Origin: Luteibacter jiangsuensis
Lineage (GTDB): Bacteria > Pseudomonadota > Gammaproteobacteria > Xanthomonadales > Rhodanobacteraceae
DNA: 64,000 nucleotides
Direction: 5' to 3'
NCBI RefSeq assembly: GCF_011742555.1
Contig: NZ_JAAQQR010000003.1
Location: forward strand, 1 to 64,000
Shown here piece by piece: positions 45,631-64,000 of this stretch; the stretch's first letter is position 1, and each line of letters begins with the position of its first letter. Position numbers and translations under genes: made by a program. Under the pieces are notes generated by a model. That model made no database searches and had not been told where the DNA came from. It saw only the letters and a program-made list of their open reading frames with translations.

Positions 45631-46544
45631 GCCCCCGCGCCGCCGTCGAGGCCTTCCTCGGCCATTTCGCCGCCGAACGGGCGCCCTCGGCCCACACCCT
45701 CGCGGCGTACCGGCGCGACCTGGACAAGCTCCTGGCCTTCATGGAGGAAGAGGGCCTGGACAGCTTCGACCGGCTCACGCCCGACCGGATGCGAACCATG
45801 ATCGCGCGCCTGCACCGGCCGCCGCCGGGCAGGGGGGGCAAGGCCCGCGAAGGCCTCGAGCCCACCAGCATTCAGCGCCTGCTGTCCGCCTGCCGCACGC
45901 TGTTCCGGTACCTGAGCCGGGAAGGTCGCCTGGATCATGACCCCGCCGCGGGCGTCCGCGGCCCCAAGGTGCGGCGCAAGCTGCCTCAGGTGCTCGACGC
46001 CGACGAGGCGAAGGAGCTGGTGGAAACCAGCCTGGGCGGGCCTCTGGCGCCGCGCGACACGGCGATGATGGAGCTGTTCTACTCAAGCGGCCTGCGCCTT
46101 TCCGAGCTCTGCGGCCTGCACTGGGGCGACCTGGACCTGGAAGACGGGCAGGTCCGGGTGCTCGGCAAAGGCCAGAAGACGCGCATCCTGCCCGTGGGGC
46201 GCTTTGCCGTGGCCGCCTTGAAGGCGCTGGCCGCCTTGGGCGGCGCCGGGCCCGGCCAGCCGGTGTTCAAGGGCCGGGACGGGGCGTCCATCAGCCCCCG
46301 CACCGTGCAGCAACGGCTGGCCAAGCTGTCCAGTGGCCAGGCGAAACGGGTGCATCCGCACATGCTCCGGCACACCTTCGCCAGCCACATGCTGGAGTCC
46401 TCCGGCGACTTGCGTTCGGTGCAGGAACTGCTCGGCCACGCCGACATCGCCACCACGCAGATCTACACCCACCTCGATTTCCAGCACCTCGCGAAGGTGT
46501 ACGACGCCGCGCATCCCAGGGCCAAGCGGAAGACCCGCCCGTAG
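45627..46544 (+). CDS. xerC: Tyrosine recombinase XerC
   Basis: 305 aa from a GTG that overlaps the DUF484 stop. SAM-like N-terminal domain at about 5-95; catalytic domain with R157 (SSGLRLSEL), H245/R248 ([12 protein letters not shown]) and the nucleophile Y280 (QIYTHLD). XerC works with XerD at dif to resolve chromosome dimers. Its place after dapF and DUF484 matches E. coli and identifies it as XerC and not XerD or a phage integrase. Confidence 0.95.
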
Positions 46545-60808: not shown

Positions 60809-60851
60809 GCCGGCGATAACGGAGCCGGCCATGCGGGAACCTGCTTTGTGT

Positions 60852-60933
60852 GTGGGAGCCGGCATTGCCGGCGATCCCGCGGCAGCGGGCAACCTTGCCG
60901 CGAGCACCCATCGCCGCTGAAGCGGCTCCCACA
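60852..60933. repeat. REP-like palindromic element, copy 15 (reverse orientation)
   Basis: 82 bp, GTGGGAGCCGGCATTGCCGGC at the left and GCCGCTGAAGCGGCTCCCAC at the right, between the LysR gene and the MFS gene. The rest of the 258-bp gap holds no feature I can support. Confidence 0.9.
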
Positions 60934-61066
60934 CAAAGCCCAGGATCCCTCACATTCCGGGGCGAGAACCTTCCGTCGGGCATGGCCTCGGAGAGCACCC
61001 GGGCGTATCCTAGCCGCTTGCTGCGACGCATCACAGCGTTGCGCCCCAACGTCCCCGAGTGCCGCC

Positions 61067-62287
61067 ATGACCTCTTCCCCTCCCGTGCCCGACGCGGGCA
61101 CGCCCCCCGTTCGCGCTCCCCACGTCGGCCTGGTGATCCTGGCGCTGGCCGTCGGGGGCTTCGCCATCGGCACCACCGAGTTCGCTTCCATGAGCATGCT
61201 GCCCCTGTTCGCACAGGGTCTCGGCATCGATGCGCCCACGGCAGGTCACGTGATCAGCGCCTATGCACTGGGCGTGGTCGTCGGCGCGCCGATCATGACG
61301 GTATTGGGCGCTCGCGTGCCGCGTCGCCGGCTGTTGCTCATGCTCATGGCGATGTTCACGGTGTTCAATGGCCTCACCGGCTTGTCGCCGAGCTACCACT
61401 GGATGCTGGTGTTCCGCTTCCTGGCCGGACTGCCGCACGGTGCATATTTCGGTGTCGCCGCCTTGGTCGCTTCGTCGCTGGTACCGGCGAACCGGCGCAC
61501 GCGGGCGATAGGCCAGATGTTCCTCGGGCTCACCATCGCCACCGTGGTCGGCGTTCCTCTCGCGAGCTGGCTCGGACAGGCCGTAGGCTGGCGTTGGGCC
61601 TTCGCGCTGGTGGCGCTGCTCGGCATCGCCACGATGTCCGCCGTCGCGGCGTTCGCGCCCGAAGTGCCTGCCGATACAGACGCGAGCCCATTGCGCGAAC
61701 TCGGTGCACTGAAGCGTCCGCAGGTGTGGCTCACGCTGGGCATCGGCGCCATCGGTTTCGGCGGTCTGTTCGCGGTGTACACCTATCTCGCCGATATGCT
61801 GCTCTCGGTGACGCACATGCCGCTCAGCGCGGTGCCGTGGGTCATCGGCGTCTTCGGCATCGGTCTCACCGCGGGCAACATGATCGTACCCGTGTTCGCG
61901 GATCGCGCGCTCATGCGCACAGCTGGCGTGTTGCTCGTATGGAGCATGGCGATGCTGGCGGCCGTGCCGTTCACCGCAGGCAACGTGTGGACGCTGGGCT
62001 TGAATGTCTTCCTCATCGGCGTCGGTGGTGCGCTCGCTACCGTGCTGCAGACGAGGCTGATGGACGTGGCCGGCGATGCGCAGGGGCTCGCCGCTGCGTT
62101 GAACCATTCGGCGTTCAACACGGCGAATGCGCTCGGGCCGTTTCTCGGCGGGCTGGCCATTGCGCATGGTTACGGCTGGACGTCGCCGGGCTGGGTGGGG
62201 AGCGCCCTCGCGCTGTGCGGTCTGGGCATCTGGGCGGTGTCGGTTAGTTCAGGCCGCGAGCAGAGAGTGGCCGCCGAGTCGTATTAA
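61067..62287 (+). CDS. MFS transporter (DHA1 family)
   Basis: 406 aa from the ATG at 61067 (MTSSPPVPDAGTPPVRAPHV), after which twelve membrane helices follow. VILALAVGGFAIGTTEFASM (TM1), GAPIMTVLGARVPRRRLLLM (motif A region) and LGPFLGGLAIAHGYGW fit the YdhP/AraJ-like arabinose and drug efflux branch. It ends 7 bp before the left direct repeat of the dinD insert. The substrate is not known. Confidence 0.88.
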   Translation: MTSSPPVPDAGTPPVRAPHVGLVILALAVGGFAIGTTEFASMSMLPLFAQGLGIDAPTAGHVISAYALGVVVGAPIMTVLGARVPRRRLLLMLMAMFTVFNGLTGLSPSYHWMLVFRFLAGLPHGAYFGVAALVASSLVPANRRTRAIGQMFLGLTIATVVGVPLASWLGQAVGWRWAFALVALLGIATMSAVAAFAPEVPADTDASPLRELGALKRPQVWLTLGIGAIGFGGLFAVYTYLADMLLSVTHMPLSAVPWVIGVFGIGLTAGNMIVPVFADRALMRTAGVLLVWSMAMLAAVPFTAGNVWTLGLNVFLIGVGGALATVLQTRLMDVAGDAQGLAAALNHSAFNTANALGPFLGGLAIAHGYGWTSPGWVGSALALCGLGIWAVSVSSGREQRVAAESY

Positions 62288-62293
62288 GGAACG

Positions 62294-62310
62294 TCACTTC
62301 CGATACAGAA
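62294..62310. repeat. Left direct repeat of the mnmE 3' end (candidate attachment site)
   Basis: TCACTTCCGATACAGAA matches the last bases of mnmE at 63470-63487 (TCACTTCCCGATACAAAA) apart from one missing C and one A/G change. Read on the minus strand it is TTCTGTATCGGAAGTGA, the displaced copy of the mnmE tail, 1.2 kb from the real one. SGI1-family islands integrate at this point and duplicate about 18 bp. Confidence 0.7.
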
Positions 62311-62418
62311 GCGGCTCCCCGGGCGTGTAGATCAGCCGCGAGCTTGGGCGCGAGGGGATGAAGCTGAGTGCTCAGTTGGAAAGCTTGTTCAAGCTCAAAC
62401 CTCCAAAATCGTCTCCAG

Positions 62419-63288
62419 TCAGTCTGTGTCTTGCTGCTTGGAAGCGGGGAGTTTCCCTGCCTGTATTACGAGCTTCCTCTCTTCGGTCTTCACGCGACGC
62501 TCTAGCTTCTTAATGTCTTCTTCGGCGGGAAGTCGCTCAGGCTGGATGCCGCGCTGGCCGAGCATGTCGCGCACACTGCTGTTGTTCTGCTCGTGCTCGC
62601 GGGTGATCAACGATTCGCCATGCAGCCGGTCCTGCGTGACGTTATGGTTGGTCATTTCGGTCGCAAGATTCTTGGCCGCTATGGTCAGCGTGGGCAGGAA
62701 GTCGGCCAGTGGGCGGGTCTGGGTGATGCCATAGCGATCTTTCATCATCTGGGTGGTGTGGCCGCCGAACAGTGCGGCATCGCCCTTGGAGCGGATACGG
62801 CCAAATCCCTTATCGTCCACGCCACGCTCGTAGAGTTTCTGCGATAGAGTCTTTTCCGATTCTCGCAGGCGCTCTCGGGCGTCCAGACGGGCCTGCAGGC
62901 GCATGCGGTCTTCGATCACTTCCTGCTTGCGCGTCTGGATCGCGAAGTAGCTCTGGGCGAAAGCGATAGCCTGCTTTCGCGGGTCGCCGTTCTGGGCGAC
63001 GAGATAGCAGGCATAGCGGGTGAGCATGAAGTCTTCGACCGGGCGTTGACCTCCCTTGCCGATCTCGATCATTTTCGTGACGCCACGAAAATGATCCGCT
63101 TGTTCATAACCCGTTGTTCTGCAAGACTCTATGGCACGCTCGATGGCAGTCTTGAAGTTCTCCCAGCGTACATAGCCAAGGGGCTCCATCAGGTCACGGG
63201 CGAACCAGAAAGTCACGCCTTCTTCGGGGATGGTCTGACTCAAACCATCGAAATGGCTTTTCAGCAGCTGGATGTCATGGGATTCCAT
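62419..63288 (-). CDS. dinD: DNA-damage-inducible protein DinD (BRO-N family)
   Basis: 289 aa (E. coli DinD is close to this size). The N-terminal BRO-N-like domain covers about residues 1-115 (FWFARDLMEPLGYVRWENFK, LTRYACYLVAQNGDPRKQAI), followed by a helical C-terminus (RIRSKGDAALFGGHTTQMMK). In E. coli it belongs to the SOS regulon and inhibits RecA filament formation. No LexA box can be fixed with confidence upstream. Its DNA is visibly richer in A+T than the neighbours and it sits alone in the segment between the two mnmE-tail repeats, signs of transfer. Confidence 0.9.
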   Translation of the reverse strand: MESHDIQLLKSHFDGLSQTIPEEGVTFWFARDLMEPLGYVRWENFKTAIERAIESCRTTGYEQADHFRGVTKMIEIGKGGQRPVEDFMLTRYACYLVAQNGDPRKQAIAFAQSYFAIQTRKQEVIEDRMRLQARLDARERLRESEKTLSQKLYERGVDDKGFGRIRSKGDAALFGGHTTQMMKDRYGITQTRPLADFLPTLTIAAKNLATEMTNHNVTQDRLHGESLITREHEQNNSSVRDMLGQRGIQPERLPAEEDIKKLERRVKTEERKLVIQAGKLPASKQQDTD

Positions 63289-63469
63289 TCGGCTTCTCCG
63301 AGTGTCAGGCGATCTTCCATCGCGCCGCGGATGCTAGACGACGGATGGTCACGAAGGGCGTTGTTCAGGTCTCTCGTCTCTATCTCTCGCGCTCGATTAT
63401 AGAGTCTTCAACAGGTGGCGATTGAGTGCCTCGGCTCGACCAAGTGGCTCGGAAGTCCTTGGATTCATC
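63289..63469. other. Non-coding part of the dinD insert
   Basis: No gene is seen. The segment is AT-richer near TCGATTATAGAGTC (63395-63410) and presumably holds the dinD promoter. There is no integrase or recognisable remnant of one. Confidence 0.4.
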
Positions 63470-63487
63470 TCACTTCCCGATACAAAA
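63470..63487. repeat. Right direct repeat: the mnmE 3' end (candidate attachment site)
   Basis: TCACTTCCCGATACAAAA is the complement of the last codons of mnmE (CIGK and stop) and is nearly repeated at 62294-62310. The mnmE frame is intact on this side. Confidence 0.7.
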
Positions 63488-64000
63488 CGAACTGAAGATC
63501 GCACCCAGCAAATCGTCGGACGAGTAGGCGCCGGTAATTTCCCCTAGCGCCTGCTGCGCCTGGCGCAGTTCCTCGGCGGCCAGTTCGCCCGCATGGCTGT
63601 CGTGCAATGCATCCGCCGTTCGCGCGAGATGATCGCGCACGACCTCGAGCGCCACCACGTGGCGTCGCCGCGCGCTGAAGGCGCCTTCGCCTGCGCCGGC
63701 CGTGGCCAGGTCACGGAGCAGGGCGCGAAGCGCATCGAGGCCTTCGCCAGTGCGCGCCGAGAGCCACAGCGTCTCGTGATTTTCGCGGGTCTCGCGATGA
63801 GCGGCTTTGTCGGCAAGGTCGATCTTGTTGATGACGACGATGCGCGTGGCATGTGCCGGCGTGCCGTCGAAGAAAGCGAGGTCGCTGTCGGCGTGGTCGG
63901 TGTCGGTGACGAGGAGGGCGACATCGCAGCGCTCGAGTTGCGCGCGTGCGCGGCGGATACCTTCGCGTTCCACGATGTCTTCGGACTCGCGCAGCCCCGC
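63470..64000 (-). CDS. mnmE: tRNA modification GTPase MnmE, C-terminal part (runs off right edge)
   Basis: 177 codons of the C-terminus, open to the right edge. The GTPase domain is entered at GLRESEDIVEREGIRRA (G3/switch II region), followed by the NKID box (VVINKIDLAD) and SARTGEGL, then the helical domain. The protein ends FCIGK, whose Cys is essential for tRNA wobble-uridine modification with MnmG. yidC and the dnaA region are expected further right. Confidence 0.95.
   Translation of the reverse strand, partial: AGLRESEDIVEREGIRRARAQLERCDVALLVTDTDHADSDLAFFDGTPAHATRIVVINKIDLADKAAHRETRENHETLWLSARTGEGLDALRALLRDLATAGAGEGAFSARRRHVVALEVVRDHLARTADALHDSHAGELAAEELRQAQQALGEITGAYSSDDLLGAIFSSFCIGK

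Follow-up and report, generated by a model that had tools for sequence, protein, structure and literature searches.

A one-gene dinD insert at the 3' end of mnmE in Luteibacter jiangsuensis, very probably the relic of a type I restriction-modification island

The insert between mnmE and the MFS gene

We analyzed a window of 64,000 nucleotides from Luteibacter jiangsuensis (contig NZ_JAAQQR010000003.1) that closes inside mnmE. The 3' part of this host gene occupies 63470..64000 on the reverse strand, with its stop at 63470, and runs off the window. At the 3' end of mnmE lies an insert of 1.2 kb (62294-63487) with a single intact gene, dinD (62419-63288, reverse strand, 289 amino acids), and a copy of the mnmE 3' end on each side. 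The right border is an MFS transporter gene on the forward strand (61067..62287, Pfam MFS_1), a conserved neighbor of mnmE: in 21 of the 23 genus genomes it turned up no more than 20 kb behind that gene (for G011, the stretch read spans only 6.6 kb). The initial annotation had described this segment as AT-richer and as carrying only dinD, and both descriptions were borne out. G+C content is 57.7% in the insert against 66.1% in the window, and 2 of 629 stretches of insert length, some of which may overlap the insert, were as low. Upstream of the MFS gene, at 60848-60940, is a repeat with inverted GTGTGGGAGCC / GGCTCCCACAC ends that looks REP-like by eye.

The dinD product scored 369.3 bits against NCBIfam NF008573, 'DNA damage-inducible protein D' (cut-off 242), contains the Pfam Bro-N domain, and matched PADLOC candidate family PDC-S13 at 383 bits. 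It was the only copy found in its genome. E. coli DinD belongs to the same NCBIfam family but to a different subfamily, with E. coli entries of the plasmid collection matching the window dinD at 34-36% identity; among E. coli genomes, 4 of 5426 gave a match, over 13% of the gene. No close carrier was found on plasmids or phages, where the best matches reached 63% and 65% identity. E. coli DinD is reported to inhibit or remove RecA filaments (PMC10602874, PMC4849656). The window DinD most likely acts on such filaments as well. A perfect 13-bp inverted repeat at 63067-63096, in the stretch of dinD coding for DHFRGVTKMI, probably arises from conservation of the protein motif encoded there.

With neither a terminator nor a sigma-70-like promoter found between mnmE and dinD, read-through from mnmE would be the simplest route of expression, and dinD, which lies on the mnmE strand, is probably transcribed in this way. 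No LexA box was recognized upstream of dinD; the conserved motif that precedes the lexA genes of the genus, which we took to be the LexA box, fits there with at best 6 mismatches in 14 positions. Comparison of the window dinD with ten relatives gave omega values of 0.035-0.164, a range that includes time spent inside restriction-modification (R-M) operons, so these values cannot be read as selection in the present host.

The two copies of the mnmE end (62294-62310 and 63470-63487, both on the reverse strand) differ by one deleted base and one substitution. For this reason, an ungapped search allowing three mismatches recovers only the copy in mnmE. When gaps were allowed, the repeat scored 14.0. 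None of 200 shuffled tails scored as high in the interval, nor did the rest of the window, where 204 stretches of 1.2 kb (both strands) peaked at 11. The near-identical copies seen in the initial annotation thus lie far above chance.

An empty site with a single copy of the repeat, which had been proposed as the mark of integration, was found in a sister genome (G015) with a 96% identical MnmE fragment. There, the mnmE stop and the MFS match are 13 bp apart. The single mnmE end of G015, along with its flank, could be aligned to the distal copy in the window and the sequence next to it; one base is missing in the repeat, and past it the two sequences differ at scattered positions. The proximal copy, formed by the last 18 bp of mnmE, differs from the G015 end at 2 of 18 positions, and the preceding 25 bases are identical. 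That the copies differ, and that only the distal one fits the empty site, is as insertion predicts. Because it runs on into the flank seen at the empty site of G015, the distal copy rather than the mnmE-proximal copy is the ancestral mnmE end, and the present end came with the element. Such a pattern marks an element that put its own end in place of the gene's and displaced the old one outward, and it supports the original proposal that the segment inserted at the 3' end of mnmE and regenerated the end of the gene. Carriage of dinD is also far from general among relatives: it was present in 1 of the 23 genomes of the genus and was not found in the other 22.

No integrase ORF lies within the insert, as originally stated. 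Elsewhere in the window, outside the insert, an ORF at 45990-46487 has an integrase-family catalytic domain (153.5 bits) and is perhaps Xer-like.

Occupants of the site behind mnmE

We surveyed 92 regions downstream of mnmE in the family, taking in all 23 genus genomes plus 69 from elsewhere in the family. An mnmE match was present in 225 of 233 family genomes, and the surveyed regions were the better-scoring ones; G152, G159, and G189, which have little DNA beyond mnmE on the contig, were omitted. A border gene was not found in six surveyed regions (L182, L213, L220, L239, L243, and L254). The site was empty or nearly so in 43 of the 92 regions, with less than about 230 bp from mnmE to the border gene. 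Among the 49 occupied regions, five (the window, G196, G075, G165, and G020) repeated their own mnmE end, with the second copy scoring above all 200 shuffles.

Larger islands between the same repeats had been anticipated at this point, and larger integrase-bearing islands were indeed found there in other family genomes. An integrase gene lies directly behind mnmE in 3 of the 92 regions (G164, G196, and G075). A second mnmE end accompanies it in G196 and in G075, the latter with no border gene found. The island of G164, whose integrase was the one checked for Pfam domains and has both the integrase and the arm-binding domain, yielded no second mnmE end (p = 0.72). Between two mnmE ends in G165 (L237 531-1746, in mnmE orientation) is an integrase-free insert of 1.2 kb with one gene, the protein of which had no Pfam match; this insert ends 14 bp from ribokinase. 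When the ends of the window insert were compared with those of four other inserts (three right ends and four left ends), no match was found.

Within the genus, the mnmE-MFS interval can hold an AbiD-like gene (G022, L041), an AbiE pair (G016, L052), a PIN-domain gene (G018, L038), or a HipA-like gene (G014, L045). Neither an integrase nor a second mnmE end was detectable in these four intervals (p = 0.15-0.71). Defense and toxin-like genes gather at this spot in the genus.

Genus intervals of this sort, holding other genes and no detectable repeat, would be expected if dinD were an ordinary intergenic gain and its flanking repeats had come from local duplication or chance. Such duplication does occur, as the second mnmE end of G020, rejected as an att site, is a plain tandem duplication of roughly 176 bp. 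We regard this origin as extremely unlikely for the window, where the repeat is far above chance and its copies differ, with the distal one alone fitting the empty site, and two integrase islands of the family show two mnmE ends. The G020 duplication (L034 440-900) spans the mnmE end together with a palindrome-rich repeat.

The hsdR remnant and the origin of the insert

Species genomes were scanned for dinD relatives, and from the 403 obtained we retained the best 80. Among the first 17 loci listed (L076-L092), 12 have the order hsdR-dinD-hsdM, with junctions of 0-85 bases. L082 adjoins HsdM-like genes, dinD is alone in L089 and in L076 and L077 from Alcaligenes, and no marker was found in L088. 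Of 90 dinD loci examined with a limited marker set, 27 had hsdR or hsdM no farther than 5 kb away and 1 had an integrase nearby, and more distant dinDs also stand alone or next to other systems. Given that lone dinD is found at other sites too (e.g., L089 and L094), standing alone is not specific to mnmE. A fusion of dinD to type I hsdS has been reported (PMC4996451).

The 3' end of hsdR, which encodes the type I restriction subunit, aligns to the 182-base stretch that separates mnmE from dinD in the window. This held for all 12 hsdR-dinD-hsdM loci, with a score above 100 of 100 shuffles in each. Over each whole locus, the best match falls at the same place in hsdR, starting 188-260 bases before dinD, and it outscores every random stretch tested for that locus. 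Only the 3' end of hsdR is represented, and there are stops in all three frames. The interval at 63305-63464 (reverse strand) is, by this alignment, what remains of the hsdR 3' end, with its frame broken and its position colinear with hsdR-dinD-hsdM operons. The 108 bp of the distal part of the insert (62311..62418) had no convincing match to hsdM or hsdS in 12 R-M loci (p = 0.17-0.9) or, in a second comparison, in 6 loci (p = 0.03-0.93, with the single 0.03 taken as chance). A remnant of hsdM/hsdS in this part was rejected on these shuffle p values.

We consider it very probable that the insert is the relic of an hsdR-dinD-hsdM type I R-M island at mnmE, decayed to an intact dinD, an hsdR stump, and the borders. 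The initial annotation had left the choice between a decayed island and a minimal element moved in trans. Decay is strongly favored because an hsdR remnant lies between mnmE and dinD and the ends of the insert are unlike those of other inserts. A minimal element would consist of dinD and two att sites, moved by an integrase acting in trans, and would sit well with G165, where another insert of 1.2 kb has one gene and a repeat but no integrase, and with the occurrence of dinD or rhuM alone at the same place in Alcaligenes; but the hsdR stump within the insert, its single copy in the genome, and ends unlike those of all other inserts compared make such a unit very improbable, and we rejected it.

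We also think it improbable that a relic decayed in another lineage and then arrived by homologous exchange in mnmE and its flank. The conserved mnmE/MFS neighborhood would permit such an exchange, which has no direct support, and the genus member nearest by MnmE is without the insert, but so is every other genome of the 23 in the genus.

If the insert is a decayed R-M island, its history would have run as follows. An hsdR-dinD-hsdM type I R-M island would have inserted into the last 18 bp of mnmE, presumably by means of a tyrosine recombinase, restoring the gene end with its own copy and displacing the old end to the far border. Deletion and decay would then have removed hsdM/hsdS, the integrase, and the greater part of hsdR, in an order of our reconstruction, leaving the hsdR stump, the intact dinD, and the two borders. 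Read through from mnmE, dinD would most likely still yield a protein active on RecA filaments, and selection in this host would maintain it. Such a life cycle, from insertion at mnmE through loss of the integrase and restriction genes to the survival of one accessory gene, would make sense of this unusual one-gene insert as the last stage of a defense island, with possible intermediates in other bacteria.

The insert is a case of an already known kind, namely islands at mnmE (trmE) with type I R-M cargo. MGIVchHai6-type islands are described as inserting at the 3' end of trmE, the same point as the window insert, and most trmE-specific group A islands as encoding predicted type I R-M systems (PMC7449626). 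They carry int, xis, and mobI, whereas the window insert has none of these and about 1.2 kb is left. MGItrmE of Shewanella putrefaciens CN32 is likewise reported at the trmE site and has a type I R-M system but, unlike the window insert, is about 30 kb long and excisable, with an excisionase (PMC12016545). The main text of neither paper mentions dinD. Our literature search, to which most subscription journals were inaccessible, found no paper on dinD at mnmE.

SGI1 and its relatives are also described as integrating at the 3' end of trmE, as the window insert does, and the initial annotation had called the site SGI1-type. Kinship with SGI1 itself was not supported. The insert contains one gene only, without an integrase or any other SGI1-like gene, and no SGI1 backbone (int, xis, transfer genes) was found in it, its content being dinD and the hsdR stump. 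With the insertion site alone in common, membership in this group was rejected.

A dinD lineage behind mnmE

We placed the window in a DinD tree of 38 rows, which also included 35 of the 80 scanned loci and two more Alcaligenes sequences. The window, Pectobacterium PL152, and four Alcaligenes rows grouped at 100/93, and all six rows of this clade sit behind mnmE. Two of the Alcaligenes rows, L174 and L176, had been retrieved by way of mnmE, which leaves the window, PL152, and L076/L077 as independent cases. No mnmE was found near the other 32 rows, among which a divergent MnmE or a short contig could escape notice. From these placements, one dinD lineage appears to be tied to mnmE in what we take to be three bacterial orders, and to stand without restriction genes in two of them.

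Pectobacterium PL152 (L091) has hsdR-dinD-hsdM directly behind mnmE and thus shares with the window the site, the dinD clade, and the position of dinD beside hsdR. It differs in that its R-M genes are still present and no distal mnmE end was found, the remaining 13.9 kb yielding no second copy (p = 0.3). The R-M genes are in broken frames, and dinD also seems shifted near its end. Because the broken frames may be assembly errors, we excluded them as evidence of decay. Within the family of PL152, a PL152-like dinD was found in 2 of 198 genomes including PL152 itself; the 3-kb locus of the other, at 70% identity, showed neither mnmE nor an R-M marker.

Alcaligenes L076/L077 agree with the window in site, orientation, and dinD clade and are without R-M genes; they differ in that no hsdR remnant or distal mnmE repeat was recognized beside dinD. 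Among 10 Alcaligenes genomes, dinD stands alone about 100 bases behind mnmE in four and is present as a remnant of about 240 bp in one. No convincing trace of hsdR or hsdM was found in the dinD flanks (12 comparisons for each side-pair, p = 0.03-0.92), and with one p of 0.03 taken as chance, a remnant of these genes was rejected. Hence, an R-M origin is supported for the window insert and not for the Alcaligenes loci. In 2 of the 10 genomes, another lone gene takes the place of dinD behind mnmE, namely L173 (G237), identified as rhuM by Pfam PF13310, and L175 (G240), assigned by its like sequence. These loci amount to a one-gene swap, rhuM-family for dinD, at the same mnmE site.

The lone Alcaligenes dinD is under strong purifying selection. 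Omega was 0.03-0.13 in all six pairs, with L174 and L178 used without their first codons (254 and 258 amino acids). Identities were 87-94% without gaps for dinD and 91-96% for mnmE, as compared with 66-94% for the non-coding spacer. Lone dinD in Alcaligenes offers a natural test of DinD function freed from a type I R-M system. A broader reading, which we put forward tentatively and hold to be rather unlikely as a whole, is that a distinct dinD lineage is carried by restriction islands targeting mnmE in at least three orders and, once the restriction enzymes are gone, persists by itself behind mnmE, transcribed together with that gene, as a useful host gene for RecA control or defense. Hosts would in that case select DinD and not the R-M system.

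In the family of the window, a dinD match was present in 17 of 233 genomes, with at least 4 behind mnmE. The dinDs of G149, G198, and G164 (a fragment) belong to another subfamily, at 34-38% identity, and lie among type I R-M genes. Given this difference in subfamily, dinD-bearing R-M islands seem to have reached mnmE on more than one occasion.
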